Position numbers and translations under genes: made by a program. Shown here one piece after another: positions 21,527-38,643 of a stretch of 55,410 bases of DNA (its first letter is position 1; each line of letters starts with the position of its first letter). The DNA is taken from the NCBI GenBank assembly GCA_903915955.1, contig CAIWUU010000059.1:1-55410 (forward strand), written 5' to 3'. The notes beneath the pieces were generated by a model that did no database searches, had not been told where the DNA came from, and worked only from the letters and a program-made list of their open reading frames with translations. Origin of the DNA: an uncultured Chlorobiaceae bacterium (GTDB taxonomy: Bacteria; Bacteroidota; Chlorobiia; Chlorobiales; Chlorobiaceae).

Positions 21527-23599
21527 TTACGGCATACTTTTCTTTTCATCACCACCCTGCGGCCGCTTCAAAACCTGTTCAAGTTTGCTGATCTCATCAC
21601 GCAGATAAGCTGCTTTTTCATACTCCATCTGGACGGCTGCTTCCTGCATTTCAAGTCGGAGCTCTGCGGCCATAGCGTAACCCTGCTCTGGTGTCAAGGT
21701 GTCAACAAGACCCGAAAACACACGCTCCGGTTTGGCTTCAAGCCCAAAACGCCTTCTCCTGTAGCGCTCTTCGGCATCGGCCACTCCTGTGGTATCAAGG
21801 ATCTGATCAACTGACTTGATGATTGAACGAGGAGTTATGCCGTGCTCTTCGTTGTATCGCCGCTGGATTGTCCGTCGCCTTGCAGTTTCGTCGAGCACCT
21901 CCTGAATTGAGCGGGTGATCACATCAGCGTAGAGCACAACAAATCCGTCGAGATTACGGGCTGCCCTGCCGGCAATCTGCATCAGCGAACGGGTGTTGCG
22001 CAAAAAGCCCTCCTTGTCGGCATCAAGAATTGCCACGAGGGAGACTTCCGGAAGATCAAGCCCTTCCCGCAGCAGGTTGACTCCGACCAGCACATCAATA
22101 TCTCCCGTCCTGAGTTCTCTGAGAATCTGGATTCGCTCCAGACTCTTGATCTCTGAATGGAGGTAGCGTGAACGAATACCAGCCTTTCTGAAAAAGTCGT
22201 GCAGATCCTCCGACATTCTTTTGGTGAGCGTCATCACCAGAACCTTGTGCCCTTTGCCGGTATGGATACGGATTTCGGCCATCAGGTTGTCGATCTGCCC
22301 GTTGACCGGACGAACCTCAACTGGCGGATCAAGCAGGCCGGTAGGACGAACAAGCAGCTCAACCACCTCGCCTCCAGAACGGAGCAGCTCATGGTCACCG
22401 GGAGTGGCGCTGACACAGATCACCTGCTTCACCATCTCCTCAAACTCCTCAAACCGGAGTGGTCGATTGTCGAGCGCTGAGGGAAGCCTGAAGCCATGTT
22501 CGACCAGAATGGTTTTGCGTGACCGGTCGCCACCGTACATGCCACGTATCTGCGGCAACGTCACATGCGACTCATCAATCACCACAAGATAGTCCTCTGG
22601 AAAATAGTCGAGGAGACAGATGGGGCGCTCCCCGGCAGGACGTCCTGAAAGATGGCGAGAGTAATTCTCAATACCGGAGCAGTAGCCAAGCTCCTTCATC
22701 ATCTCAAGATCGTAGCGGGTGCGCTCTTCAATTCTGCGAGCTTCGAGAAAGCGGTTTTCTGCGCGATAATAGTTCAACCGCTCCGCAAGTTCGTTTTCGA
22801 TGGCAAACATTGCCACCTTGAGCTTCTCCTCATCGGCAACAAACTGCCGGGCCGGATAGATGAAAGCATAATCATCAACTCCAAGCACCTCCCCGGTATG
22901 AATATCAAAGGTCTGGATACTCTCTATCTCGGAGCCGAAAAACTCGATTCTGAGGGCAAGCTCGTCATGCGCAGGCACCAGATCAATGCTGTCTCCCCTG
23001 ACCCGGAACTTGCCGGAGGTTGGCTGAACATCATCACGAATATAGTGGAGCGCGATCAGCTCTTTAAGAAAAACATCGCGATCCTTCTCCATGCCGGAAC
23101 GGAGTTCGATAATCTGCGCTTTCCAGTCTTCAGGAGAGCCCAAGCCATAAATACAACTGACCGAGCTGACCACAATCACATCTTTCCGGCCACTGAGAAG
23201 AGAACTTGTAGCCTTCAGTCGAAGACGTTCAATCTCATCGTTGATGCGAAGATCTTTGGCGATATACTTGTCAAGCGAGGGCAGGTAGGCCTCCGGCTGG
23301 TAAAAATCGTAGTAGCTGATAAAGTACTCGACGGCATTATCCGGGAAAAATTGCTTGAGCTCCCCGTAGAGCTGGGCCGCAAGCGTCTTGTTGTGGCTCA
23401 TCACCAGCACCGGCTTGTTGACCTGCGTGATGACGTTGGAGATGGTAAAGGTTTTTCCGGAACCGGTCACCCCAAGGAGCGTCTGGTAGGGATTCCCCGA
23501 CAACACGCCATCACAGAGCGCCTCAATGGCTCTCGGCTGGTCACCTGCCGGACTGTAAGGACTGACCAGCCTGTATGTTCCGCCAACAATCTCTGCCAT
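21527..23599 (-). CDS. uvrB: Excinuclease ABC subunit B
   Basis: A 690-residue UvrB. It has Walker A GVTGSGKT near residue 43, the beta-hairpin segment [29 protein letters not shown], and helicase motifs through AGRAARN. The C-terminal UVR motif ([14 protein letters not shown]) that binds UvrC is present. It verifies damage and loads UvrC in nucleotide excision repair. The ATG at 23599 (MAEIVGGTY) is chosen because it matches the family start and has AGAGGGAG upstream; an ATG at 23641 would add 14 extra residues. Its upstream gap holds a broken umuD, another DNA-damage gene. Confidence 0.97.
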
Positions 23600-24254
23600 A
23601 CCTGACGCTCCCTCTTGATGTTTTTTTCGTTTCCCCCCCAAAGGCTTGCGCCCTGCTCTACCGATACGTCGCCACTACCTGGCTCGAAAATGATTCGCCA
23701 CCCCGACATTTTCCGTAAAGAGCACATCAGACATCTCATCGACAGACTTATAAAATATCATGGGCGATTCTCAACAAAGAGGAGGCACCAAGAAGATAAG
23801 AAAAATCGCAAGGCTTACAATTTGGCAAAGTGCGCGGCACGAATACCCCAAAAGATTCGTGTTGTCGTGTTTATCGCTGAGAGATGTTCTGTACCCTGCT
23901 TGATCTATCCGTTGTGGCTCTTCATTCTCTTTTTCGCATATTGTGATGGTACCCTGATTTTGAGAACTGTCACCATTGCTGATGCGTCTTTCCCGAATAC
24001 ATACCGATCCGGTGCTGGACTTTTATACTGCGGATGTGGCGACCTCGCTTGAGTTGCCGCTTTTTGCTGCGGCTGTTTTGGCTGGATTTCTTTCTCCGGC
24101 GTTGTGAATAAATAATCCTGCGCTTAAACGGGATGTGCCTTCGACGTGGCGGAAAAGTTACGCATATATGTTTGAATGTATCAAGCTATCAAACTCATGG
24201 GATTTCTGTTGCTTATGGGAATAATTTTGGTAAAGCATTTCATAAGACATTCGC
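23600..24254. other. Gap between uvrB and hsdR
   Basis: This 655-bp stretch has no intact recognised gene. It should hold the uvrB promoter on the minus strand and the hsdR promoter on the plus strand. A 47-codon open frame (23760-23903, plus) has no clear ribosome site or family and may be chance or debris. The umuD remnant at 23982-24107 is listed separately. The last 150 bases before hsdR show nothing I can name. Confidence 0.6.
23982..24107 (+). pseudogene. Truncated umuD remnant
   Basis: A 41-codon frame opens with an ATG, reads MRLSRIHTDP, and continues to ELPLFAAAVLAGFLSPA before a stop. The second part resembles the start of UmuD proteins, which read like PLFxxxVxCGFPSPAxDY. The frame ends just where family members continue into the peptidase domain, so everything after the SPA motif is missing and replaced by unrelated DNA before hsdR. 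UmuD is the self-cleaving subunit of DNA polymerase V. The loss point (about 24101) is probably the left junction of the restriction island. The call rests on a short match. Confidence 0.6.
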
Positions 24255-27254
24255 ATGACTACTGAAAACAAGATCGAACTGAGCCTGATAGCCAAGCTCA
24301 GGGATCTCAAATACATCTATCGGGAAGATATACGGGATCGTGCCGGGCTGGAGAAGAACTTCCGCGAAAAGTTTGAATCGCTCAACAGGGTTCATCTGAC
24401 CGATGCAGAGTTCGCTCGACTGCTGGATCAGATTGTCACCCCGGATGTCTTTGCTGCAGCCCGCCATCTGCGCGAACGCAACAGCTTCGACCGTGACGAC
24501 GGCACACCGCTCTTCTACACCCTGGTCAACATCAAGGAGTGGTGCAAAAACAGCTTTGAGGTGGTGAACCAGCTCCGCATTAACACTGATAACAGCCATC
24601 ATCGTTATGACGTGCTGCTCCTTATCAACGGCGTACCGGTGGTACAAATTGAGCTGAAAACCCTCGCCATCAGCCCGCGCACAGCCATGCAGCAGATCGT
24701 CGATTACAAAAACGACCCCGGCAACGGCTACACCAAAACCCTCCTCTGCTTTCTGCAACTCTTCATCGTCAGCAACCGCACCGATACCTGGTACTTCGCC
24801 AACAACAACAGCCGCCACTTCAGCTTCAACGCTGATGAGCGTTTTCTGCCGCTCTACCAGTTTGCCGGAGAAGACAACAAGAAGATTACTCATCTCGACA
24901 GTTTTGCCGAGAAGTTCCTCGCCAAATGCACCTTGGGCGAAATGATAAGCCGATACATGGTGCTGGTGGCCAGCGAGCAGAAGCTGATGATGATGCGCCC
25001 TTACCAGATTTATGCTGTCAAGGCAATCGTGGAGTGTATTCATCAGAACTCCGGCAACGGCTACGTCTGGCACACCACCGGCAGTGGCAAGACGCTCACC
25101 TCCTTCAAGGCATCCACCCTGCTCAAGGATAACCCCGATATTGACAAATGCCTCTTTGTGGTAGACCGCAAAGACCTCGACCGACAGACGCGGGAAGAGT
25201 TCAACCGCTTTCAGGAGAACTGCGTCGAAGAGAACACCAACACCGAAACCCTGGTGCAGCGGCTGCTCTCCAATGATTATGCCAACAAGGTGATTGTTAC
25301 CACCATCCAGAAGCTCGGTCTTGCCCTTGATGGCAGCAATAAACGCAACTACAAGGAACGGCTGGAACCGCTGCGTAAAAAGCGCATGGTCTTCATCTTC
25401 GACGAATGCCACCGCTCCCAATTCGGCGACAACCACAAGGCCATCAAGGAATTTTTCCCCAACGCCCAGCTCTTCGGCTTCACCGGTACGCCAATCTTTT
25501 CAGAAAATGCCAGTTATCAACAGATTGAGGGGCAGCAGGGCTCTTTTATCACCACAGCAGAGATCTTTCAGCAGCAACTGCACGCCTACACTATCACGCA
25601 CGCCATTGAAGACCGCAACGTCCTGCGCTTCCACGTCGACTATTTCAGGCCCGAAGGCAAGAACAGGCCAAAGCCGGGGGAGGCGCTTACCAAGAGAGCC
25701 ATTGTTGAGGCCATTCTCGAAAAACACGACACTGCCACCTACGGGCGCAAGTTCAACGCCATTCTGGCTACGGCCTCCATCAACGATGCCATTGCCTATC
25801 ATGAGCTGTTCAAGAGCATTCAGGCCGAAAAGCAAGCCAAAGAGAGCAACTTTCAGCCACTGAACATCGCCTGTGTCTTTTCGCCTCCCGCGCAGGCTAT
25901 TGCTGGTGATGCCGGGAATCGAAACGAAAAGAATGTGGCAGACATCAAGCAGCTCCAGGAAGATCTGCCGCAGGAGAAGGCCGACAACCAGGTTGCCCCG
26001 GATGAAAAAAAGGTGGCCCTCAAAGCCATCATTGCCGACTACAACACCAACTACGGCGCCAACCACCGCATCGACGAATTCGACCTCTACTATTCGGATG
26101 TGCAAAAGCGCATCAAAGATCAGCAATACCCCAATCAGGACTTGCCGCATGCGCAGAAGATCGACATCGTGATTGTGGTGGATATGCTGCTTACCGGTTT
26201 TGACTCCAAATTCCTGAACACCATCTACGTCGATAAAAACCTGAAGTACCACGGGCTGATTCAGGCCTTCTCACGCACCAACCGTGTACTGAACGATACC
26301 AAGCCCTACGGCAGCATTCTCGACTTCCGCCAGCAGCAAAGCGCGGTCAACGATGCCATCGCCCTCTTTTCCGGTGAGCAAGCCGACCGCGCCCGCGAAA
26401 TCTGGCTGGTTGATTCCGCCCCGGTGGTCATCAACAAACTGGAAAGTGCGGTTAAAAAGCTGGCCGAATTCATGCAATCCCAGGGGCTGGCAAGCGCCCC
26501 GGAAGAGGTGGCAAACCTTAAGGGCGATGCAGCACGCGGCCAGTTCATCAACCTCTTCAAGGAGGTGCAGCGCCTCAAAACCCAGCTTGACCAATACACC
26601 GACCTGACGGCGGAAAACGCCCTCAGCATCGCGCAGGTCATACCGCCGGAGCAGTTGCAGGCCTTCCGTGGAGTCTATCTCGAAACCGCCCAGCGGCTGA
26701 AAGAAAAAAAGAGCAAAAGCAACGACGGCCCGGAAGAGGAGCAACTCGATTTTGAATTCGTGCTCTTTGCCTCCGCCATGATTGATTACGACTACATCAT
26801 GGGCCTCATTACAAGCTACTCGCAGCAGACACCCGGCAAGCAAAAGATGAGCCGCACCGAACTTATCGGTTTGATTGCATCCGAGGCCAACCTTCTTGAG
26901 GTGCGCGAAGAGATCGCCGACTATATCGGCACCCTCAAGTCAGGCGAAGGGTTGAAAGAGAGTGAGGTTCGTCAGGGTTACGAAACCTTCAGGGCCGAAA
27001 AAAACGCCCGTCAACTGGCTGACATTGCCGAAAAGCACGGGCTGGAAACCTCCGCGCTTCAAGCCTTTGTAGATACCATCATGCAGCGGATGATCTTCGA
27101 CGGCGAACGGTTGACCGATCTACTCGCTCCGCTGGGGCTGAACTGGAAAAGCAGAAGACAAAAAGAGCTGGCATTGATGGAGGAGCTGATTCCGTTGCTG
27201 CACAAACTTGCGCAAGGGCGGGAAATTTCGGGGTTGGAGGGGTATGAGCAATAA
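24255..27254 (+). CDS. hsdR: Type I restriction enzyme R subunit
   Basis: A 999-residue HsdR. The N-terminal nuclease domain shows the PD-(D/E)xK pattern (RYDVLLLI near residue 117 and QIELK near 131). The motor has Walker A TTGSGKT near 274, DECHRSQFG near 383, FGFTGTPIF, and later DMLLTGFDSKFL and QAFSRTNRV. The C-terminal helical region that contacts the HsdM/HsdS core is present. It cuts unmodified DNA after ATP-driven translocation. The length is normal and no break is visible. Its stop overlaps the next small frame, so the R gene leads the operon. Confidence 0.96.
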   Translation: MTTENKIELSLIAKLRDLKYIYREDIRDRAGLEKNFREKFESLNRVHLTDAEFARLLDQIVTPDVFAAARHLRERNSFDRDDGTPLFYTLVNIKEWCKNSFEVVNQLRINTDNSHHRYDVLLLINGVPVVQIELKTLAISPRTAMQQIVDYKNDPGNGYTKTLLCFLQLFIVSNRTDTWYFANNNSRHFSFNADERFLPLYQFAGEDNKKITHLDSFAEKFLAKCTLGEMISRYMVLVASEQKLMMMRPYQIYAVKAIVECIHQNSGNGYVWHTTGSGKTLTSFKASTLLKDNPDIDKCLFVVDRKDLDRQTREEFNRFQENCVEENTNTETLVQRLLSNDYANKVIVTTIQKLGLALDGSNKRNYKERLEPLRKKRMVFIFDECHRSQFGDNHKAIKEFFPNAQLFGFTGTPIFSENASYQQIEGQQGSFITTAEIFQQQLHAYTITHAIEDRNVLRFHVDYFRPEGKNRPKPGEALTKRAIVEAILEKHDTATYGRKFNAILATASINDAIAYHELFKSIQAEKQAKESNFQPLNIACVFSPPAQAIAGDAGNRNEKNVADIKQLQEDLPQEKADNQVAPDEKKVALKAIIADYNTNYGANHRIDEFDLYYSDVQKRIKDQQYPNQDLPHAQKIDIVIVVDMLLTGFDSKFLNTIYVDKNLKYHGLIQAFSRTNRVLNDTKPYGSILDFRQQQSAVNDAIALFSGEQADRAREIWLVDSAPVVINKLESAVKKLAEFMQSQGLASAPEEVANLKGDAARGQFINLFKEVQRLKTQLDQYTDLTAENALSIAQVIPPEQLQAFRGVYLETAQRLKEKKSKSNDGPEEEQLDFEFVLFASAMIDYDYIMGLITSYSQQTPGKQKMSRTELIGLIASEANLLEVREEIADYIGTLKSGEGLKESEVRQGYETFRAEKNARQLADIAEKHGLETSALQAFVDTIMQRMIFDGERLTDLLAPLGLNWKSRRQKELALMEELIPLLHKLAQGREISGLEGYEQ

Positions 27255-27501
27255 TAAACTACAAGGGAATGAGGTGAACACACTCGCGACACAACAAGAG
27301 TTTTGCAATAAAAACCGGTGGCGCATGAAGCAATGTTATGAAATATGGCAGGCGGATGAAAAACTCTCACCACTGGTGAGAGAATTGCACTGGACACACA
27401 ACACCCTCATTTTTTGGCGATGCAAGAGTTCTAAACTGCATGAGTTTTATGCCAATGAAGATGCTTTGGATTGGGAAACGCAACAAGGGTGTGAATTATG
27501 A
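27244..27501 (+). pseudogene. DUF1016 (YhcG-type) nuclease N-terminal fragment
   Basis: An 85-codon frame that begins inside the hsdR end and ends in a 4-bp ATGA overlap with hsdS. It holds FCNKNRWRMKQCYEIW, LSPLVRELHWTHNTLIFWRCK and LHEFYANE, which match part of the DUF1016 N-terminal domain of YhcG-type proteins. Full family members are around 330-360 residues and have a C-terminal PD-(D/E)xK nuclease, which is absent here. It may still be translated as a coupling peptide between hsdR and hsdS. Confidence 0.75.
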
Positions 27502-28655
27502 ATGTGCCCAAGCTGCGGTTTCCTGAGTTTCAGGAAAAGTGGAAAGAAGATAGGTTGGGAGTAATTTGTGATAGTATCTCATCAGGGAAAGACAAAAGTG
27601 ATCCTGATGGCGCATACGATTTATTTGGCTCAACAGGAGTTATCGGAAAAACGTCAAGTGATACTTTTGATGGTAAATTTCTTTTGGTTGCCAGAGTTGG
27701 AGCAAATGCCGGACTTTTAACAATAGCAATTGGGAAATTTGGTGTAACCGATAACACGCTGGTTATTTACCTTAAAAAGCCAGCCTGTATTGATTTCGTT
27801 TTCTATTATCTGGAAAGCTTGAGATTAAATAGACTTGTTTTTGGTTCAGGTCAGCCTTTGATCACAGGCGGACAATTAAAAGCACTACCCCTTTTTCTTC
27901 CAAACAACTCTGAGCAACAAAAAATCGCCGACAGCCTTTCATCCATCGATGACCTGATCACCGCCCAAACCCAAAAGCTCGTCACGCTCAAAACCCATAA
28001 AAAAGGGCTGATGCAGCAGCTTTTCCCGGCAGAAGGCGAAACCCTGCCCAAGCTGCGCTTTCCTGAATTTCAGGATGATTGGGTAATTAAAAAACTGGGC
28101 GAGCTTGGCAAGCTAATTGGCGGTGGAACGCCAGACAAATCAGTGGCAGAATATTGGCAGGGCGAGATTCCTTGGGTTTCAAGCTCTGACATATACGAAG
28201 ATGATATCAATACTATTTCAGTCACAAGATTTATCAATGAGAAATCAATATCGGAATCTGCAACAAAAAAAGTTCCAAAGGGAAGTGTTTTGTTTGTTTC
28301 AAGAGTTGGTACCGGGAAGTTGGCTATAAATGATAATGATGTGTGTACAAGCCAAGACTTTATGAACTTCATGCCTAAGAAAATTTACAACTATTACCTT
28401 GGGTATTTTTTTATTGTAAATAAATCAGCTCTGATATCTTTAGGTCAAGGCACATCAATCAAAGGATTTTCTAAAGGTGATTTAGAGAAACTTGAAGTAA
28501 GTTACCCCGGGGATCTCGAGCAACAAAAAATCGCCGACTGCCTTTCATCCATCGACGACTTGATCACCGCACAAAGCCAAAAGATCGACATACTCAAAGC
28601 CCATAAAAAAGGGCTCATGCAGCAGCTCTTCCCGGCAATTGACAGCAAGGAGTAA
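27498..28655 (+). CDS. hsdS: Type I restriction-modification specificity subunit
   Basis: A 385-residue HsdS with two target-recognition domains (residues about 5-135 and 185-335), each followed by a long helix of the conserved type. Both helices share QQKIADSLSSIDDLITAQ-like and HKKGLMQQLFPA segments, and each half opens with PKLRFPEFQ. The subunit sets the methylation and cleavage sequence for the HsdM/HsdR complex; the sequence recognised cannot be deduced. It overlaps the DUF1016 fragment by 4 bp. Its 3' end is partly copied elsewhere in the island. Confidence 0.95.
   Translation: MNVPKLRFPEFQEKWKEDRLGVICDSISSGKDKSDPDGAYDLFGSTGVIGKTSSDTFDGKFLLVARVGANAGLLTIAIGKFGVTDNTLVIYLKKPACIDFVFYYLESLRLNRLVFGSGQPLITGGQLKALPLFLPNNSEQQKIADSLSSIDDLITAQTQKLVTLKTHKKGLMQQLFPAEGETLPKLRFPEFQDDWVIKKLGELGKLIGGGTPDKSVAEYWQGEIPWVSSSDIYEDDINTISVTRFINEKSISESATKKVPKGSVLFVSRVGTGKLAINDNDVCTSQDFMNFMPKKIYNYYLGYFFIVNKSALISLGQGTSIKGFSKGDLEKLEVSYPGDLEQQKIADCLSSIDDLITAQSQKIDILKAHKKGLMQQLFPAIDSKE
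27505..27534 (+). repeat. Short direct repeat, hsdS first half (copy 1)
   Basis: This 30-base stretch encoding PKLRFPEFQ is repeated at 28045-28074 with two mismatches. Each copy comes just before a target-recognition domain, so recombination between copies could swap or delete one domain. Confidence 0.85.
27912..28031 (+). repeat. hsdS conserved-helix repeat, copy A
   Basis: A 120-base stretch encoding the first conserved helix of HsdS. A matching 120-base copy lies at 28518-28637, and its last 75 bases appear again at 29413-29487. The copies are highly similar at the DNA level. Confidence 0.9.
28045..28074 (+). repeat. Short direct repeat, hsdS second half (copy 2)
   Basis: This is the second copy of the PKLRFPEFQ-coding 30-base repeat, placed in front of the second target-recognition domain. 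Confidence 0.85.
28518..28637 (+). repeat. hsdS conserved-helix repeat, copy B
   Basis: This 120-base copy encodes the second conserved helix at the HsdS C-terminus and has the same length as copy A. Most differences fall in the middle (AQSQKIDILKAH against AQTQKLVTLKTH). Confidence 0.9.
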
Positions 28656-28697
28656 TTCCATTTCTAAATCTATAATGACATCATAAAGCAAGGTCGA

Positions 28698-28740
28698 TTG
28701 ACGATATTATGCAATTATGGAACATTATACACCATTAGGA
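28698..28740 (+). promoter_or_regulatory. Candidate promoter before the PIN toxin gene
   Basis: A TTGACG word at 28698 followed by AT-rich DNA with CATTATAC about 18 bases on lies in the 129-bp gap between hsdS and the PIN gene. It could start the toxin transcript. Green sulfur promoters are poorly defined, so this is a weak call. Confidence 0.3.
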
Positions 28741-28784
28741 AGCTTGAATATTATAACACTTTTGTTGTAGAAATGGAATAACCA

Positions 28785-29213
28785 ATGAAACTCTATCTTG
28801 ATAACTGCGTTTTTAACCGGCCTTTTGATGTACAATCCAACATCAAAACATTGCTGGAAACAGAAGCCAAGCTGAACATTCAGGAAAACATCCGCAGAGG
28901 AAACCATGAACTGGTTTGGTCATACATCCTTGATTATGAAAATCTGAAAAACCCTTTTCAGGAAAGACAGGAGCAAATTGCAAAATGGAAGCATTATGCA
29001 AAAATTCAGATTGAAGCAGAGGATAGTCTTATTCAACGGGCAAAGTCACTCAAGGAATCAGGGTTGAAATCCTTTGATGCTTTGCATGTTGCTTGCGCGA
29101 TTACGGCAGGCGCAGAGTATTTTTTGACGACAGACATGGGAATTCTTAAAAAAGCAGCAATCATTCGTGATATTCAGATCAAAAACCCTATAGACTTCAT
29201 CAGAGAGGTATAA
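28785..29213 (+). CDS. PIN-domain ribonuclease, probable toxin
   Basis: A 142-residue PIN-fold protein. The acidic residues expected for metal binding appear in LYLDNCVF (near residue 5), SFDALHVACA (near 97) and TTDMGILKK (near 116). PIN toxins of the VapC group cut RNA, often tRNA. The gene is followed after 2 bp by a 66-residue frame that looks like its antitoxin, so the toxin comes first, reversed from the common vapBC order. It sits inside a restriction operon, between hsdS and hsdM. Confidence 0.85.
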   Translation: MKLYLDNCVFNRPFDVQSNIKTLLETEAKLNIQENIRRGNHELVWSYILDYENLKNPFQERQEQIAKWKHYAKIQIEAEDSLIQRAKSLKESGLKSFDALHVACAITAGAEYFLTTDMGILKKAAIIRDIQIKNPIDFIREV

Positions 29214-29215
29214 AC

Positions 29216-29416
29216 ATGATTACCGACACAGAAATCAGGGTAAAAGGCATTCAAATTCTTGCCCAATATCTGGGTGATATTGAAATGGAGCGTTTTATCG
29301 CGCTGATTCAACGAGAACCTTTTGACTATACCCAGTGGCGAGAGAGCATGGAGCAAGAGGAGAGCGTTGAAGAGATCAGCCGAAAAGCAATGGCGCACAC
29401 TAAAAATCAGTCATGA
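29216..29416 (+). CDS. Small protein, probable antitoxin of the PIN toxin
   Basis: A 66-residue acidic protein whose ATG lies 2 bp after the PIN stop. It has no recognised DNA-binding motif. The sequence includes GIQILAQYLGDIEMERFIALI and QWRESMEQEESVEEISRKA. Size, spacing and pairing suggest an antitoxin; this is inference. Its last 80 or so bases are copied at 31265-31361 upstream of hsdM. Confidence 0.65.
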   Translation: MITDTEIRVKGIQILAQYLGDIEMERFIALIQREPFDYTQWRESMEQEESVEEISRKAMAHTKNQS

Positions 29417-29508
29417 CCGCACAAACGCAAAAGCTCGCCACGCTCAAGACCCATAAAAAAGGGCTGATGCAGCAGCTTTTCCCGGCAATTGAGGAGGTAT
29501 CAAGCTGA
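29413..29508 (+). pseudogene. Orphan copy of the hsdS 3' end (31 codons)
   Basis: The first 75 bases match the hsdS conserved-helix repeat from ITAQTQKL to QLFPA, and the frame stays open to a stop. The Ile codon of hsdS is an ATG here, and this ATG overlaps the antitoxin stop by 4 bp. The stop in turn overlaps the ATG of the zeta-like gene by one base. The fragment is therefore placed as a coupled mini-gene between two toxin modules. It marks a recombination in which cassettes were inserted behind hsdS. Whether it makes a peptide is unknown. Confidence 0.85.
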
Positions 29509-30026
29509 TGGGTAAAAAAATCATCATTATCGCCGGACCCAATGGAGCAGGAAAAACCTCTTTTGCCCGCACGTTTCTGCCAAAAGAAGCTCAATGCCTG
29601 CGCTTTGTCAATGCCGATCTCATTGCAGCCGGACTGTCACCCTTTGCCCCTGATGTGGCCGCCATCAAAGCAGGGCGCGTCATGTTGGAAGAGATTGCCG
29701 ATTGCGTTCGACGTGAAGAAAGTTTTGCATTTGAAACTACACTATCCGGAATGGGTTATCTGATGCATATCCAGCAATGGCGTACTCAAGGCTTTTTGGT
29801 TAGCCTCTATTTTCTGGCGTTACCCAATGTCGAAGCGGCCATTGCCCGTGTAGCGGAGCGCGTTCGCCAAGGAGGACATAACATTCCTGAACCAGTTATT
29901 CGTCGCCGTTTTATAGCGGGATTGCGTAACTTTGAGCAACACTACAAAGCCGAGGTAGATGATTGGACTAAATACAACAACGCCGGAGAGAGACCGGTTT
30001 TATTAGAATGGGGAGAAAACCTGTGA
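29508..30026 (+). CDS. Zeta-toxin-like P-loop kinase
   Basis: A 172-residue protein with Walker A GPNGAGKTSFA near residue 8, FVNADLIAAGLSPF, and FAFETTLSGMGYL, then AIARVAERVRQGGHNIPEPVIRRRF. This is the ATPase family that includes zeta toxins, which phosphorylate UDP-N-acetylglucosamine and block peptidoglycan synthesis. It is shorter than plasmid zeta proteins, as are most chromosomal relatives. An epsilon antitoxin is not present. The next gene overlaps it by 4 bp and could be the partner. Confidence 0.85.
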   Translation: MGKKIIIIAGPNGAGKTSFARTFLPKEAQCLRFVNADLIAAGLSPFAPDVAAIKAGRVMLEEIADCVRREESFAFETTLSGMGYLMHIQQWRTQGFLVSLYFLALPNVEAAIARVAERVRQGGHNIPEPVIRRRFIAGLRNFEQHYKAEVDDWTKYNNAGERPVLLEWGENL

Positions 30027-30250
30027 ACGCAAAAGATATTTCAAAGGCTAAAAACCCTGACCAGCGTGGTTCATTAGCCGCTCTGCAACGAGCCGCCGCA
30101 TTGGCCCGTGAAACCGCTATTCAAACGAATACCAATATCGTGATTGAAAAAGATGGGAAATTGGTGTGGATTTCAGCGGAAGAACTGCGCCGCCAAGCAT
30201 CAGAGGCAAAAGAATCTATAAATCCCCAGCCTTCCGGCCTGGTATTGTGA
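30023..30250 (+). CDS. Small protein overlapping the zeta-like gene, possible antitoxin
   Basis: A 75-residue protein starting with a GTG that overlaps the zeta-like stop (GTGA). GGGAG lies about 9 bases upstream of this GTG, which favours it over the ATG at 30008. The sequence is helical with RGSLAALQRAAALARETA and then VIEKDGKLVWISAEELRRQ. Small genes of this type often follow chromosomal zeta-like kinases, so a partner or antitoxin role is plausible but unproven. Confidence 0.65.
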   Translation: MNAKDISKAKNPDQRGSLAALQRAAALARETAIQTNTNIVIEKDGKLVWISAEELRRQASEAKESINPQPSGLVL

Positions 30251-30332
30251 TTCATTGCAGGATACCCCTGAGTGCCTATATTAACAGAAAACAGTGGTCT
30301 CATTGAAATTCAGTTCGAAAAGGTACTGCACT

Positions 30333-31211
30333 ATGCTTTTAAAAGATCGTTACATAAACCCCTTTACCGACTTTGGTTTCAAGAAAATCTTTGGCTCTGA
30401 GGTCAACAAAGACCTGCTGATAGCGTTTTTGAATACGCTCTTGCCTGCCGAAGCGGGAACAGTTTCCGATCTTTCATTTTTGCCCAATGAACAGGTTGGG
30501 CGGAGTGAGTACGACCGCAGGGCAATTTTTGACCTTTATTGTGAAAATGAAAAGGGCGAAAAATTCATTGTTGAGATGCAGCGGGCGAAGCAGAACTACT
30601 TCAAAGATCGATCGATTTTTTATGCCACCTTTCCGGTTCAACAGCAGGCACAGAGCGGCTCGTGGAATTTCTGTCTGAAGGCGGTCTACATGGTCGGTAT
30701 TCTTGATTTCGTGTTTGATGAAGATAAAGCTGATAATGAGGTCGTTCACCATGAAGTAAAACTGGTTGATCGTTCCACGGGCGCAGTTTTCTCCGACAAG
30801 CTCACCTTTATTTACCTCGAACTTCCCAAGTTCACGAAAACGATTGATGAGCTTGTTACTGACTTCGACAAATGGTGCTTCCTTCTTCGCCATCTCCCTG
30901 AGCTGACTGACCGACCGGCCTCTCTTCAGGCAAGGGTTTTCCTCAAGGTATTTGAACTGGCAGAAATTGCAAAGTATTCGAGTGTGGAAGCGGCAGCTTA
31001 TGAAGAGAGTCTCAAGGTCTATCGTGACCTGAAGAATGTTGTCGATACCGCTTATGATGAGGGCAAGGTTGAAGGCAAGGCAGAGGGTATTGTTGAGGGA
31101 AGTCAGCAAAAGGCAATGGAAGTTGCAAAAAGCCTTAAAGATGCTGGTCTTGATATCGAAACGATTTCACGTTGTACTGGTCTGCCGATTACTCTTGTGG
31201 ATGGGTTGTAG
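30333..31211 (+). CDS. Rpn-family PD-(D/E)xK nuclease (recombination-promoting type)
   Basis: A 292-residue protein starting MLLKDRYINPFTDFGFKKIFG, the standard opening of Rpn/transposase-31-like proteins. The nuclease core shows RRAIFDLYCEN followed by FIVEMQRAK (Asp, then Glu-x-Gln). A helical tail contains GKVEGKAEGIVEG repeats and ends in a small domain (DIETISRCTGLPITLVDGL). Rpn proteins raise RecA-independent recombination and some act in phage defence. The ATG at 30333 is preferred to that at 30294 because the family begins here. The nearby copied gene ends fit a recombination-active neighbourhood, though a causal link is only inference. Confidence 0.9.
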   Translation: MLLKDRYINPFTDFGFKKIFGSEVNKDLLIAFLNTLLPAEAGTVSDLSFLPNEQVGRSEYDRRAIFDLYCENEKGEKFIVEMQRAKQNYFKDRSIFYATFPVQQQAQSGSWNFCLKAVYMVGILDFVFDEDKADNEVVHHEVKLVDRSTGAVFSDKLTFIYLELPKFTKTIDELVTDFDKWCFLLRHLPELTDRPASLQARVFLKVFELAEIAKYSSVEAAAYEESLKVYRDLKNVVDTAYDEGKVEGKAEGIVEGSQQKAMEVAKSLKDAGLDIETISRCTGLPITLVDGL

Positions 31212-31264
31212 TCAGGGTTTGTGCTCCTTCACTTGGATAGATCAGTGATACGTAGGCTTGCGCT

Positions 31265-31361
31265 GCCCTTTTTTATATCCCAGTGGCGAGAGAGCATGGA
31301 GCAAGGAGAGAGCGTCGAAGAGATCAGCAGAAAAGCGGTGGCGCACAATAAAAATCAGTCA
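31265..31361 (+). repeat. Degenerate copy of the antitoxin 3' end
   Basis: The stretch encodes QWRESMEQGESVEEISRKA and the NKNQS end with its stop, nearly matching 29334-29416. Similarity upstream fades with indels near 31265-31280. It has no start codon of its own and is a dead copy. Confidence 0.85.
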
Positions 31362-31549
31362 TGACCGAACAAGAACAGAACCAACTGCGCAAAGCCATGA
31401 ACGCCGACAACTACGAATTGGCTGCAGAGCAAGAGCTGATGCAGCAGCTTTTTCCATTCGCTGGCGAGGGGGGGCATGGACGCATTGACCTCTTTTCACG
31501 CCGATATCAAAAACATCCTCGAACAGGCGATTCTCTACACAGTGTGTAG
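31361..31549 (+). pseudogene. Chimeric scar: hsdM head joined to hsdS tail
   Basis: A 62-codon frame. Codons 1-25 read MTEQEQNQLRKAMNADNYE and match pieces of the start of HsdM with about three internal deletions. They are followed by ELMQQLFP, which is the end of the HsdS helix, then unrelated codons. Its ATG follows the copied antitoxin stop by the same TCATGA overlap as at 29413. It therefore records several joins between R-M and toxin genes. Confidence 0.8.
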
Positions 31550-31601
31550 AGATTTGAGCTGGAGCCATCTGCGCCCGATCATGCGCCTGGATTTGTCGTA
31601 A
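31476..31601 (+). pseudogene. Second DUF1016 fragment, internally deleted
   Basis: A 41-codon frame begins MDALTSFHADIKNILEQA, a typical DUF1016/YhcG start, and jumps directly to VCRDLSWSHLRPIMRLD, which lies about 80-90 residues later in full proteins. A stop follows. The middle of the domain and the entire nuclease part are missing. It overlaps the chimeric scar in another frame. Confidence 0.75.
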
Positions 31602-31727
31602 GCCATTGACTGTTATTTATTATTGCCACGAAGCCAGCGTGCCCATGTCGATCAACTGGAGAGCGATTTCGACAGGGGCAGTGAAGCAGTTGCCATCGAC
31701 ACTGGGAAAATCAAAAAAGAAGAACCG

Positions 31728-33344
31728 ATGACCGAACAAAACCAGAAACAAATGGGCACTACCCTCTGGGGCATTGCCGACCAACTGCGTGGAGCCATGA
31801 ATGCGGACGACTTCCGCGACTACATGCTCTCGTTCCTTTTCCTGCGCTACCTCTCCGACAACTACGAAACTGCGGCTAAAAAAGAGCTGGGCAGAGATTT
31901 CCCTGACAAGCAAGGGCAGTCCGGCATCACACCGCTGCAACTCTGGTATGACAATAATCCCGACGATTGTGCTGAATTTGAAAAGCAGATGCGCCTCAAG
32001 GTGCATTATGTGATCAAGCCGCAATTCCTTTGGGGCAGCATTGCGGAGATGGCCCGCACGCTAAATGGGGAGTTGCTGCATACCCTGCAAAAAGCCTTCG
32101 ATTACATCGAGAACGAATCTTTTGCCAGTACCTTTCAGGGCTTGTTCTCGGAAATCAACTTGAACTCGGAAAAGCTTGGCAAGCAGTATACCGATCGCAA
32201 TGGCAAGCTTTGCACCATCATCACCAAAATTGCCGAGGGGCTGAAGGAGTTTTCAACAGACAGCGACACCTTGGGCGATGCCTACGAATACCTGATTGGC
32301 CAGTTTGCCGCTGGTTCAGGAAAAAAGGCGGGCGAGTTCTACACGCCGCAGCAGATCTCCAGCATTCTCTCTGCCATTGTCACGCTCGACAGTCAGGAGC
32401 CAGCCACCGGCAAGAAAAAATATCTTGAAAATGTGCTCGACTTTGCCTGCGGATCCGGCTCATTGCTGCTCAATGTGCGCCATCGGATGGGCTCCCACGG
32501 CATCGGCAAAATCTACGGGCAGGAAAAAAACATCACCACCTACAACCTGGCGCGCATGAACATGCTGCTGCACGGGGTGAAAGATTCCGAATTCGAGATT
32601 TTCCACGGCGACACCCTGCTGAACGACTGGGAGATGCTGCGCGAAGCCAACCCGGCCAAAAAGAGACAGTTTGATGCCGTAGTGGCCAATCCCCCCTTCA
32701 GCTATCGCTGGGAACTCACGGACGCGTTGGGCGACGACGTGCGATTCAAGAACTATGGTCTGGCCCCAAAATCCGCCGCCGACTTTGCCTTTCTCCTCCA
32801 CGGTTTCCAATTTCTCGCCAAAGAGGGCACCATGGCCATCATCCTTCCCCACGGTGTGCTCTTCCGTGGCGGTGTGGAGGAGCGTATCCGGACCAAACTG
32901 CTCAAGGACGGCCATATCGACACTGTCATCGGCCTGCCCGCCAACCTCTTTTTTTCCACCGGTATTCCGGTCTGCATTCTGGTGCTGAAAAAATGCAAAA
33001 AGCCCGACGATGTCCTCTTCATCAACGCCAGCGAACACTTTGAGAAAGGGAAACGGCAGAACCGGTTGCGGGAGGATGATATCGAGAAAATTGTTGACAC
33101 CTATCAATTCCGCTGTGAGGAGTTGCGTTACTCTCGACGTGTAACGATGGAAGAGATTGAAAGCAACGGCTACAACCTCAATATTTCACGCTATATCAGC
33201 ACTGCTCAGGAAGAGGTAGAAGTTGACCTTCAAGCTGTCAATAGTGAGCTGGTTGAGATTGAACAGAAAATTGTTGATGCCACCCGGAAGCATAATGAGT
33301 TTCTGAAGGAGCTTGGGCTACCGTTTTTGCCGATGGGCAATTAG
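31728..33344 (+). CDS. hsdM: Type I restriction-modification methyltransferase subunit
   Basis: A 538-residue N6-adenine methyltransferase. The N-terminal helical domain starts MTEQNQKQMGTTLWGIAD. The catalytic domain has the AdoMet loop DFACGSGSLLL near residue 238 and NPPF near 321. A C-terminal coiled coil (ELVEIEQKIVDATRKHNEFL) would join HsdS. The ATG at 31728 is preferred over the TTG at 31623 because it fits the family and has AGAAGAA upstream. It lies about 3.1 kb after hsdS, separated by toxin genes and a scar. With HsdR and HsdS the system looks complete. Confidence 0.96.
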   Translation: MTEQNQKQMGTTLWGIADQLRGAMNADDFRDYMLSFLFLRYLSDNYETAAKKELGRDFPDKQGQSGITPLQLWYDNNPDDCAEFEKQMRLKVHYVIKPQFLWGSIAEMARTLNGELLHTLQKAFDYIENESFASTFQGLFSEINLNSEKLGKQYTDRNGKLCTIITKIAEGLKEFSTDSDTLGDAYEYLIGQFAAGSGKKAGEFYTPQQISSILSAIVTLDSQEPATGKKKYLENVLDFACGSGSLLLNVRHRMGSHGIGKIYGQEKNITTYNLARMNMLLHGVKDSEFEIFHGDTLLNDWEMLREANPAKKRQFDAVVANPPFSYRWELTDALGDDVRFKNYGLAPKSAADFAFLLHGFQFLAKEGTMAIILPHGVLFRGGVEERIRTKLLKDGHIDTVIGLPANLFFSTGIPVCILVLKKCKKPDDVLFINASEHFEKGKRQNRLREDDIEKIVDTYQFRCEELRYSRRVTMEEIESNGYNLNISRYISTAQEEVEVDLQAVNSELVEIEQKIVDATRKHNEFLKELGLPFLPMGN

Positions 33345-33349
33345 GGAAC

Positions 33350-33377
33350 TTTAGTGTCCCGGGACCGGGACACTAAA
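33350..33377. repeat. 28-bp perfect palindrome
   Basis: Two 13-base arms (TTTAGTGTCCCGG and its complement) flank a GA centre, 6 bp after the hsdM stop and 15 bp before the stop of the convergent autotransporter gene. No T run follows on either strand, so it does not look like a standard intrinsic terminator. It could still stop transcription as a stable hairpin, or be a repeated genomic palindrome or recombination junction. Confidence 0.85.
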
Positions 33378-33391
33378 AAGAATGTGTTTAA

Positions 33392-35350
33392 TCAGAAAGA
33401 GATTTTCAGGCCACCCGTGCAGAAAAAGTCATTTCCACCCGGTTGCCCAATCGTCTGCGACAGGTTCAGCATGATGGAGATTGCGCTCGTAAGATTGGCA
33501 TTGGAGCCAGTAGCGAGCCGGACGAAAGCGTGGTTCGGTGCGCCCGTCGCCGTCCATGAATTGACGATCAGCGGTGCAGAGGTAGCGCTGTATTGGATGA
33601 CACGGTCTGAACCCTCGAAATTGTTTTCGACGGTGAAGTTCAGATAGGAGTCGAGCCTCGTGCTTCCCAGGTCGAAAGCGCAGCGAGCCTGTGCACCCAC
33701 ACTACCGAGCACGGTTTTGGCGGTTTGCTCATTCAGATTGAGAGTGAGAACCGGATCACCATTTTCGCTATAACCGTTAACATGCGCCTGAACATAGGTG
33801 AGCCCTGCAATTGGGCCGAATTTCACTGATGGCGCAACGTCAAAAAGATAGCCACCTTTCAACGCCGCCGCGAAAGTCTCACCGTCCGGCTTGGCGGTGA
33901 TTTTACTGACGATGCCCGAACGGCTGTTGGAATAATTCAGCAAGCCGTAAGACAACAGGCTCTGAAGGAAGAGGTTTTTCTGTGTACAGGTAGCGTAGAG
34001 TCCAAGCTGGTTGGCATCTGCGCTTGTGGTTCCGGCATTCTGGCTCAGGTTCTGAGAGGGATTGTTAAAACTATAGGCCGTGCCAACCATGGCGTCGGAG
34101 GTCAGGCGGTATTCGATGCCGAGCGTTGTGCCAAGGCCGTCCGAATGATACCCTTGCGAATTGTCGCTGGAGGAACGATTGGATACAACGCCATTGCCCT
34201 GCACGAACACGGACCATGAGTTTGACCCGATTCCTGATGCGCCGGAGCTTTTCGCGGTCGCGACGTTGAACAGATCAAGCCGGTCGAACATGGTGCCGAC
34301 AAAGGCATCCGCTACAGTAAACCCAAGCTCGCAGCTTGAGGCGAAAGTCTCAGGGGCGTTGAGGCGATTGGCGATGTAATCCGCCACAATGGCAAAGCCG
34401 GCCGAAGTCAGATGCAACTGATCGACGTAGAATAAATATTCGTTCACCAGGGCTGAATTACCCGGTATCGGGCTTGCTGTAGCGTATGTCAGGCCGTAAA
34501 GCGACGGATTGGCCTTGATATTCGACTCGATCATGGCAAGGTCGACATATTCGACCCGCACGCCTGAGGTGGCTACTTTCGACAGATTTTGCTGCATCAG
34601 GTTATTATAGGTCTGGCTATAGGCCAACCCAACAGCGACCGCCGAACTGGGGTAGTTTGCTGCCTCGGGGAGGCCAGCGACATCGCCTGCGGTGAAAACA
34701 AGCGTTTTGGCACCCGCGCCGACAAGTGCGTTAATTCCAGCTATTGCGTTGTCTGCCGAAGTCGCAGCGAAAGATGAGACGGTCGCCATTGGGCCGCTGG
34801 ATTGATAATAATTGCGCGCGTCATTACCACCGATGTTGAGAGTCACCAACGCATTCGGCGCGATGACATTACCTAAAGCCAGAAAATTTTGCCACTCATA
34901 GGTGAAGCCCGGCAGACCAGGAAATTCATTAGTTGCCCCGGTCTGCGCGCCACCGAGAGCATAATTGTCTTGTGAGATTCCATAAAGGCTCGACAATGTG
35001 TCGACATAATTGGTTCCACCGCTGAACGTTCCAGTTGGATAGATCGAGTTGAGATAAGCGAGTGTGGGTGTACCTGCGTAGCCAGGGGTCGTCGCCATGA
35101 TGTTCAGGATGTTACCATTATCGGCATAGCTATCGCCGAAAGCAACGATCGAGGAAAATTGCCGGGCATTGGCGCAAGCGAAAGGCGCGACGTTCAGGGC
35201 GAGAGCGGTCATCAAGGCGTATCGAACCTTTTTGGGCAACAAATGGCGGAAAAAAAGCGAGACGAAATTGTGATGGCTCATGCCATTCTTTAAAAATCTC
35301 GCCGAATGTTCCAAGAAGAACTCTTTATTGTCCCGTTGAGCCAACTTCAT
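33392..35350 (-). CDS. GDSL-family esterase autotransporter
   Basis: A 652-residue outer-membrane protein. After an extended N-terminus and a signal peptide (MTALALNVAPFACANA region, residues about 45-62) comes an SGNH hydrolase domain: FGDSYADNGN with the nucleophile Ser, then GGNDARN, then DQLHLTSAGF with the catalytic Asp and His. Residues about 370-652 form an autotransporter beta-barrel ending in Phe. Such proteins display a lipase/esterase on the cell surface. Starts at 35350 or 35281 are both possible. The GC-rich, alphaproteobacterial-looking codon choice differs from its neighbours and suggests transfer. I know no standard role for it in green sulfur bacteria. Confidence 0.92.
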   Translation of the reverse strand: MKLAQRDNKEFFLEHSARFLKNGMSHHNFVSLFFRHLLPKKVRYALMTALALNVAPFACANARQFSSIVAFGDSYADNGNILNIMATTPGYAGTPTLAYLNSIYPTGTFSGGTNYVDTLSSLYGISQDNYALGGAQTGATNEFPGLPGFTYEWQNFLALGNVIAPNALVTLNIGGNDARNYYQSSGPMATVSSFAATSADNAIAGINALVGAGAKTLVFTAGDVAGLPEAANYPSSAVAVGLAYSQTYNNLMQQNLSKVATSGVRVEYVDLAMIESNIKANPSLYGLTYATASPIPGNSALVNEYLFYVDQLHLTSAGFAIVADYIANRLNAPETFASSCELGFTVADAFVGTMFDRLDLFNVATAKSSGASGIGSNSWSVFVQGNGVVSNRSSSDNSQGYHSDGLGTTLGIEYRLTSDAMVGTAYSFNNPSQNLSQNAGTTSADANQLGLYATCTQKNLFLQSLLSYGLLNYSNSRSGIVSKITAKPDGETFAAALKGGYLFDVAPSVKFGPIAGLTYVQAHVNGYSENGDPVLTLNLNEQTAKTVLGSVGAQARCAFDLGSTRLDSYLNFTVENNFEGSDRVIQYSATSAPLIVNSWTATGAPNHAFVRLATGSNANLTSAISIMLNLSQTIGQPGGNDFFCTGGLKISF

Positions 35351-35715
35351 CTTTTTGTTTGATTTTCTGTTCCCAATGAGTCTCTTTCATGTGCCGCCAA
35401 GTTATCGAAAATATGGGAAGAAAAGTACCGTTAATGAGCGAATTTAGTAAAGTGGCCCCTTCCAAGTCATAATTTGTTCGGGAAATCAGGATTCTTCTCT
35501 CTATCGACAAATAGTTGTTATATGTGAATGATTTGCCATATACTTTAGAATGCTGAGAACAGGATCCCTTACCGCCTGGAAATAGATTTAAAAATAAAGA
35601 CCGGGGTGTATGAAACCTTCTCTTTAAAAAAAAGTTCTTGCCATGGTTGCAATTATCTGCTTTTAATCCCATTATTATCTTTTTGATGCCGGATAATCTT
35701 CAATTTGTTTTACCA
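35351..35715. other. Gap between the autotransporter and the M16 protease gene
   Basis: This 365-bp AT-rich stretch lies between two divergent genes and should hold both promoters. No gene, repeat or hairpin of note was seen. Confidence 0.55.
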
Positions 35716-38643
35716 ATGAAACGCGGTGTCCCCATGCTCATCGTCGGGATACTTTTTTTGCATTTAATCTCCTGTACGACCATTATGAACAAGAACGAAA
35801 CCAGCCCATACCCATACACCACAGTTCCAGGAGACTCTCTTCACACCAGAATCTATACTCTCAAAAATGGGCTGACCGTTTACATGAGCCCTTATCATGA
35901 CGAGCCGAGGATATACACCTCTATTGCCGTCCGGGCGGGGAGCAAAAATGATCCCGCCGAAACAACTGGTCTTGCACACTATCTGGAACACATGCTTTTT
36001 AAGGGAACAGATTCCCTCGGCTCTCTTGATTATGAAAAGGAGCATATTGAGCTTGAAAAGATTACTGATCTCTATGAAGAGTACCGTTCAACGGCCAGCA
36101 TTGAAAAACGGGCGGCAATTTACAAGAAGATCGATTCACTCTCCAATGCTGCGGCTGGTTTTACAGTCCCCAATGAGTATGACAAGCTGCTCAGCTCAAT
36201 CGGTGCCCAGGGCACCAATGCCTACACATGGGTCGAACAGACCGTCTATGTCAACGATATTCCGTCTAATAAATTTGACCAGTGGCTGACCATTGAGGCA
36301 GAGCGATTCCGCAATCCGGTCATGCGCCTCTTTCATACCGAACTTGAAACCGTGTATGAAGAGAAAAACATGACCATGGATAGTGACAGTCGTAAAATAT
36401 GGGAGAATCTCTTTGCCGGGCTCTTCAAAAAACACACCTATGGAACACAGACCACCATTGGCAAGGCGGAACATCTGAAAAATCCTTCAATTAAAAATGT
36501 TATCGATTACTACCGCAGCCATTATGTGCCAAACAACATGGCACTCTGTATCGCCGGGGATTTTGAGCCGGATGCGATGATCAAGCTGATTGATGAGAAG
36601 TTTTCGGCACTGGAACCAAAAGAGGTGCCCCTTTTTACCCCTGCGGTTGAAGATGAGATCACCAAACCATTGATCACAAAGGTAAAAGGGCCTGAATCCG
36701 AAGAGCTGGTCATTGGGTTTCGCTTCAATGGTGTCAACACCTCTGATGCCGATTACCTGACCCTTGTCGACAAAATCTTGTTCAACCACACCGCAGGTCT
36801 GATTGATCTCAACCTGAACCAGCAACAGAGAGTGCTTGATGCCGGATCAACGCTGGTCATGATGAAGGATTACTCCACGCATATTCTGACCGGAAAACCG
36901 AGAGAAGGGCAAAGCCTTGATAAAGTAAAAACCGAGCTGCTGGGCCAGCTTGAACTGCTGAAGGAGGGGAAATTTCCTGACTGGCTGATCGAAGCTGCCA
37001 TCAATGATCTGAAAATTGAGCAACTGAAACTCTACGAAACCAACCGCGGACGGGTTGAAGCTTATGTTGATGCCTTTATTTGGGGAATGCCCTGGCCGGA
37101 GTATATCAATCAGATAGAACGTCTCCAGAAGATTACCAAGCCGGAGTTGGTGGCCTTCGCCAAAAAGCATTACAGCGAAAATTATGTCGCAATCTTCAAA
37201 GAGCACGGCACGCCAGAGAGTGAAGTTAAGATACAAAAACCACCGATCACCCCACTCACGGTGAATCGGAACACTTCATCGCATTTTGCAGAGAATATTC
37301 TGGCAAAAAAATCTGAGGCGGCCAGCCCATCGTTTCTCGACTATAAAAAGGATATCGGCTTTTTCGATATCAACCCTTCGGTAAAGCTGCACTATCTGCA
37401 CAACAGTGAAAACGAGCTCTTCTCACTCTACTATGTCTTTGATATTGGAAAAAATAACAGCAAAAAAATTGATCTTGCGCTCGACTACCTCTCCTATCTC
37501 GGCACCTCGGAACTTACCCCAAAAGAGTTCAGCCAGGAGTTGTACAAGGCGGGTGCAAGCTTCTCGGCATTTACCTCCGACAACTATGTCTATCTGAAGC
37601 TTTCCGGACTCCAGAAGAACTCTGCTGCGGCAATCAGACTGCTTGAAAACCTTCTGGTTGATACCCGTCCTGACAAAGAGGCACTGGAGAAGCTGAAAGA
37701 GGGACTGATAAAAGAGCGAGCTGATGACAAGCTCTCCAAAAAGAAGATACTCTTTGAGGCCATGACAAGTTATGGCAAGTATGGCCCAGTGTCGCCGTTC
37801 ACGAACGTCCTCAGCAACAGTGAGCTTGAGAAGGTGACATCGAAAGAGTTGCTTGAAGAGATAGAGTCGCTCATGCAGTACAGCCATCGGGTGCTCTACT
37901 ATGGCCCGGCCTCTTCACAAGAGCTGCTCGGTGAGCTGCATTCAGTCCGGCACTATCCGGAATCATTCAAGACCCCTCCTGCAAACGATCCATACAAAGA
38001 TCTTGAGCAGAACGACAATCTTGTCTATGTCGTTGACTACGATATGACACAGGCTGAGGTGATCCTGCTGACAAGAGACGAACTCTATAATCAATCCATC
38101 GTCCCGCTGGCAACGCTGTTCAACGAATACTACGGTGGAGGAATGTCATCAGTGGTATTCCAGGAGCTGCGCGAAGCAAAGGCGCTTGCATACTCGGTCT
38201 TTTCAGTGTTCAAAACTCCGAAACAGAAGAAAGAGCACAACTACATTGTCAGCTATATCGGCACCCAGGCGGACAAGCTGCCGGAAGCGCTCGAAGGGAT
38301 CAGCAACCTGATGAGGGAACTGCCAAAATCGCCACAACTCTTTGCATCGGCGCAAAATGGCATGTTGCAGAAAATTTCCACCGAACGACTGACAAAAACT
38401 GAAATTCTCTTCTCTTACGAGGAGGCGCTTCGGCTTGGGCATGACCACGATATCAGAAAAGATATCTATCAAGGTACTGGAAAGATGAACCTCAACGATA
38501 TTGAACAGTTCCACAAAAGCCATTTCAACAACAAGAAACATGTCATGCTGGTGCTTGGCAACAAAAAAAATCTTGACATTGCAACTCTTCGGAAATATGG
38601 AACCGTCAAAGAGCTGAAGGTTGATGATATTTTTGGCTACTAA
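35716..38643 (+). CDS. M16 family zinc protease, lipoprotein with two repeats
   Basis: A 975-residue two-module pitrilysin-type peptidase. The lipobox is HLISC after a hydrophobic signal starting [13 protein letters not shown]. The zinc motif HYLEH is near residue 86 and the third ligand Glu is in [10 protein letters not shown]. The second M16 repeat (about residues 540-960) lacks HxxEH, as usual, but has an RLxxEExxA-like helix. The protein should be attached to a periplasmic membrane face and degrade peptides or process envelope proteins. An upstream in-frame ATG at 35638 would spoil the lipoprotein signal and is rejected. Confidence 0.92.

Follow-up and report, generated by a model that had tools for sequence, protein, structure and literature searches.

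A 5' umuD remnant beside a type I restriction module in an uncultured Chlorobiaceae bacterium, probably left by deletion within an inserted umuDC operon

Introduction

In a contig of an uncultured Chlorobiaceae bacterium (GenBank assembly GCA_903915955.1, CAIWUU010000059.1; 55,410 nucleotides, in the following called the window), a short open reading frame resembling the start of umuD lies between uvrB and the type I restriction gene hsdR. This raises the question of how the beginning of umuD came to lie at this position without the rest of umuDC. A sequence-only reading had proposed that the frame marks the left edge of a restriction island, which replaced the remainder of a umuDC locus beside uvrB. 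We compared the locus with a genus set of 25 genomes, comprising the own genome (G000) and 24 congeners, and with further genomes outside the genus. In all likelihood, the frame is a dead stub, the 5' end of umuD in an inserted umuDC operon that was cut by a later deletion, after umuDC and the restriction genes had come to lie side by side.

Results

The frame at 23982-24107 (plus strand) is translated as MRLSRIHTDPVLDFYTADVATSLELPLFAAAVLAGFLSPAL, i.e., 41 residues followed by a stop codon. It matched residues 1-40 of the full UmuD protein (150 residues) of congener G019 with 88% identity (E 6.9e-18), the UmuD of G003:C12 with 85% identity, and the UmuD encoded on contig C161 of the own genome with 63% identity (E 2.6e-11). 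This match to UmuD is far beyond chance. At the DNA level, identity to intact umuD ended at 24088 (compared to G019) or 24101 (compared to G003:C12), just past the SPA motif, and the assignment of the frame as a UmuD start ending at SPA was thus confirmed. The fragment contains the N-terminal arm with the cleavage-site region, in which the FPSPA motif reads FLSPA, a single change. A Pfam scan of the fragment detected no family at E values up to 10; the Peptidase_S24 core, found in the full UmuD proteins of G019 (8.1e-31) and C161 (1.9e-28), is absent. The frame stops at codon 41, before the region carrying the catalytic serine and lysine, through which the intact C161 copy aligns with solved UmuD chains (1e-32). 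The next gene downstream of the fragment is hsdR rather than umuC, and the umuC DNA of G019 had no match within window positions 23500-35800. The best reading of the frame is that of a umuD pseudogene remnant comprising the first 40 codons.

The position between uvrB and a gene for an M16 peptidase proved to be variable. uvrB (21527-23599, minus strand; Pfam UvrB_inter, UvrB, UVR) forms the left core flank and is present in 23 of the 24 congeners, G019 being the one in which it was not found. The right core flank is the M16 peptidase gene (35668-38643, plus strand, start codon uncertain; Pfam Peptidase_M16). In 21 of the 24 congeners, uvrB adjoins the M16 gene with nothing in between. For 12 of these 21, the matches of uvrB and lptF are 3.17-3.44 kb apart, which leaves space for the M16 gene alone; nine of the 12 showed the 5' end of this gene within the uvrB locus, and in G001, G004 and G011 its position was deduced from the distance. 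In the nine further congeners, 174-292 bases separate the matches of uvrB and M16. The exceptions are G006 (separate contigs), G008 (where one partial M16 match lies at a distance of 0.35 kb from uvrB and further ones lie elsewhere) and G019. None of the 21 congeners with an empty site showed a umuD match between uvrB and M16, so the short frame is not found in relatives free of the island. Since the site is empty in 21 of 24 congeners, umuDC is part of the inserted DNA and not an old neighbour of uvrB.

The inserted DNA begins to the left of the frame. In G006, whose uvrB contig carries no umuD match, homology to the window extends only up to 23830, and the umuD leaders of G041:C1 and G014:C36 align to the window from about 23911. 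The leader of the umuDC module (23831-23981, plus strand) consequently has its left edge between 23830 and about 23911; G019 DNA matches 23706-24088 with 90% identity. The proposed left edge of the island was therefore roughly correct, but the insertion starts further left, at or before about 23911. On the other side of the fragment, umuD homology is over by 24101, and the following 68 bases (24102-24169, plus strand) had no significant match in 41 genomes and, when queried alone, none in seven genomes except itself. This stretch is followed by an upstream region belonging to hsdR (24170-24254, plus strand), which matches the DNA preceding hsdR in other genomes. Homology starts at 24170 in L112, at 24182 in G018:C173, at 24184 in L111 and G003:C4, at 24188 in L108, and later elsewhere; L112 and G013:C79 are apparently one contig (6138 bases), and L108 coincides with G014. 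As the sequence-only reading had stated, DNA unrelated to umuD leads from the frame into hsdR, which starts at 24255. Around the umuD/hsdR junction, five short direct repeat pairs of 10-19 bases were present and inverted pairs were absent.

The most informative relative is G019. Its contig C19 contains, in this order, the leader (matching from window position 23706), undamaged umuD and umuC genes, the 3' part of an hsdS, a PDDEXK_2 gene, hsdM distributed over two frames, and then the same M16/lptF/sigma-factor flank as the window. DNA identity between the two loci is about 93% in the longer restriction stretches and 90% in leader and umuD. In G019, no hsdR and little hsdS sequence are seen, and its restriction system is therefore itself a ruin. 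The umuDC/restriction remnant of G019 is surrounded by four copies of a repeat of about 130-186 bases (L033: 5798-5927, 9212-9346, 9747-9930 and 9945-10129).

In the window, the fragment is followed on the plus strand by hsdR (24255-27254, 999 amino acids; Pfam HSDR_N, SWI2_SNF2, EcoR124_C), hsdS (27498-28655; two stretches of Methylase_S), genes with PIN, zeta-like and PDDEXK_2 similarity, hsdM (31623-33344; Pfam N6_Mtase, HsdM_N) and an autotransporter lipase gene, and then by the M16 gene and lptF. Judged from its predicted subunits, the type I restriction-modification set is complete. Window positions 27912-28033, 28517-28637 and 29331-29487 all correspond to one and the same end of hsdS in G019, and part of the third stretch (29331-29425) also resembles the DNA where hsdM begins in G019; these multiple matches hint at past rearrangement of the specificity genes.

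Damaged umuD copies were also found elsewhere in the genus. With the 5' end of umuD as query and a threshold of E 1e-3 or better, UmuD matches were obtained in 22 of the 24 congeners, but not in G004 and G022. The 25 genomes contain 32 such umuD places, namely 22 encoding a full UmuD (147 or more residues), nine broken ones and one that was unread (G005:C10); 3' remnants are under-counted, since the query was the 5' end. The broken places are the window, G003:C11, G009:C88, G010:C91, G018:C82, G018:C83, G018:C175, G019:C6 and G021:C10. At G003:C11 the damage consists of frame shifts confined to umuD, while the other eight end in or join non-umuD DNA, with the reservation that drafts may hold errors. 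Apart from the window and G021:C10, the remnants break or shift at about codons 20 to 101. Among the 22 full-length places, umuC is cut at G014:C36 and G013:C190, and the UmuC of G006:C133 has one internal stop. G042 and G014 are apparently one assembly (C36 of 32742 bases in both, 0 differences over 120 bases of umuD). Broken umuD is common in the genus (9/32 places), and the window case is an ordinary one. At G018:C82 (L038, around 924-1204), the truncated umuD continues in frame into other sequence, giving an open frame of 277 amino acids and possibly a fusion. The motif TGYATATT occurs ahead of 19 of 42 umuD rows; as these rows are partly duplicated and there is no background rate, we draw no claim from it.

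Several damaged copies have neighbours from defence or mobile-element families: AAA_21 and an integrase piece at G003:C11, AAA_21 at G018:C82, Cas3 and AbiEii at G021:C10, and hsdR in the window. At G021:C10 (L048, 1563-6015), the broken umuD lies between an AbiEii-like gene and cas3. Close to copies with a cut umuC, HsdM was found at G014:C36 and a transposase two genes downstream at G041:C1. The neighbours of G018:C175 (RtcB, leucyl-tRNA synthetase) and G009:C88 (lyase, DUF169) are not defence-like; at G018:C83 only the second neighbours were scanned (DUF1848, PRiA4_ORF3). No defence family was present among the 15 nearest genes of eight intact copies (G003:C12, G000:C161, G023, G012, G001, G016, G021:C33, G020:C280), but intact copies also include counter-instances, since that of G019:C19 adjoins the hsdS piece and that of G000:C161 has an hsdM-like gene 1.8 kb away. 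This neighbour scan, which left out G010:C91 and G019:C6, was chosen after the fact and is a lead, not a test.

The own genome carries an intact umuDC at G000:C161:4432-6184, encoding UmuD (150 amino acids) and UmuC (425 amino acids, impB/mucB/samB domains; 97% identical to UmuC of G018:C1). The hsdM-like gene in the same region of C161 (L040, 1201-6184, which includes umuDC) encodes a protein 35% identical to the HsdM of the window. The idea that C161 is a contaminant was dropped, as its first 18,000 bases correlate in tetranucleotide composition with the left core of the window at 0.951, the same value as for the right core (0.951); this comparison is weak, with only 0.768 for contig C133 of the same assembly and 0.895 for the island against the left core. 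Because C161 holds a complete umuDC, the loss of the window copy is buffered. The expectation that SOS mutagenesis may be lowered unless another copy exists thus meets its own exception, and its SOS wording assumes LexA. The LexA family PF01726 was over cut-off in none of the 25 genomes of the genus, with one weak match below cut-off in G013, compared to 11 of 16 genomes outside the genus and 9 of 12 belonging to other families in the order. A search with PF00717, confined to the own genome, matched UmuD on C161 alone. LexA control of umuDC in this genus therefore appears doubtful. Non-canonical LexA proteins are reported from Bacteroidetes (PMC8565304), for which reason PF01726 alone could miss an odd LexA.

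Discussion

The comparison with G019 suggests the following history of the locus. An ancestor common to the window lineage and G019 would have carried, between uvrB and M16, inserted DNA in which a type I restriction module lay downstream of umuDC. In the window lineage, a deletion would then have removed umuD from about codon 41 onwards together with umuC, as far as the DNA that precedes hsdR, so that only the umuD leader and 40 codons with a stop arisen by chance would have stayed behind, and in the G019 lineage hsdR and most of hsdS would have been lost, the order of these events being conjectural. From its sequence and known UmuD biology, the 41-residue product, which has the cleavage-site region without the peptidase core, should neither cleave itself nor serve polymerase V. 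The original proposal is correct with respect to a broken umuD beside uvrB, but its claim that the island replaced part of a resident umuDC is not supported. The 21 empty sites mark umuDC itself as inserted DNA. Since in G019 an intact umuDC precedes restriction genes related to those of the window, with the right flank in common, a deletion after the side-by-side arrangement is the simpler event, and no replacement by the island is needed.

A number of observations weigh against this history. The ends of the deletion are not proven, because 24102-24169 matches nothing. The G019 contig breaks off within the leader, and this 81%-complete assembly yielded no uvrB, so that its umuDC is tied to uvrB only via the shared leader and the right flank. 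The 3, 3 and 13 differences between the fragment and G019 at the three codon positions (13 synonymous and five nonsynonymous codons) lie mostly in third positions, as they do among other copies, and decay of the fragment is therefore only weakly shown. In G021:C10, a type A umuD stops after 42 codons, within a few bases of the window break, although the sequences beyond the two breaks do not match each other; such closely similar break points are not predicted by independent random breaks, though by our own estimate it would not be very unusual for one of the eight other remnants to come this close. Finally, all evidence comes from draft assemblies.

Among the alternatives, the view of the sequence-only reading, in which umuDC was cut short when the restriction island entered it or the DNA next to it and the G019 arrangement represents a separate arrival, is unlikely but fares best. 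It would fit with hsdR-owned DNA starting within 70 bases of the fragment and with restriction modules occurring elsewhere without umuD, but not easily with G019, where umuDC is intact and occurs together with relatives of the restriction genes and with the right flank of the window. Moreover, the part of umuD and umuC that is lost here and present in G019 is found nowhere in window positions 23500-35800, which makes a plain insertion without deletion unlikely. It is very improbable that the leader and short frame were retained since the umuD promoter now drives hsdR: the leader and the start codon are kept and look like those of other type-B copies, but the upstream region of hsdR is common to genomes without umuD there, sites resembling promoters are not in excess (2 found against 1.4 expected), and terminator-like sites are somewhat in excess (3 found against 0.7 expected), with one of the latter at 24145-24162 separating the fragment from hsdR. 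A functional short peptide, in which the N-terminal arm of UmuD binds partners, is hardly credible despite the similar 42-codon frame at G021:C10, since the other seven remnants break elsewhere and residues 33 and 37 (the latter being the first proline of FPSPA) are private to the fragment compared to six distinct type-B copies (seven rows, G014 = G042), two of which are broken themselves (umuD of G018:C82, umuC of G041:C1), umuC of G014:C36 being cut as well.

With deletion as the preferred explanation, the single remnant matters little, as it lies in a variable spot and an intact copy exists elsewhere. More generally, in a genus apparently devoid of LexA, umuDC might be a mobile and often broken passenger of defence and mobile-element regions, whose turnover would wear it down again and again and leave 5' umuD stubs with leaders that may still serve neighbours; we regard this as a tentative and rather unlikely generalization. 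The many broken umuDC copies together with no detectable LexA in the genus may merit a survey of the regulation and upkeep of mutagenic repair in green sulfur bacteria. Among the literature matches listed, there was no report of umuDC breakage in these bacteria.

Compared to umuD of G019:C19 and to UmuD in general, the fragment is alike in its start, its cleavage-site region and the SPA motif, but it has only 41 codons, no Peptidase_S24 core and no umuC behind it. With the other broken umuD copies of the genus it shares a retained 5' part and a lost or damaged remainder, and its end falls almost on the codon at which G021:C10 stops. Most of the copies are broken at other positions, and none of them matches the sequence past the window break beyond umuD itself. 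For Acinetobacter, the absence of LexA and several umuDC alleles under UmuDAb are reported (PMC7273328, PMC11332147); the similarity to the present genus lies in the absent LexA and the several umuDC copies. The type I modules of Chlorobiaceae (L108-L114) have hsdR genes 86-96% identical to that of the window, and zeta-like, PIN or PDDEXK companions in 4 of 7 cases. In the DNA fetched for nine loci with an hsdR of this kind, there was no umuD match; L111 is the only module in which the end of a umuC is visible, and on its contig umuD and a umuC with an internal loss lie about 4.6 kb upstream of hsdR.
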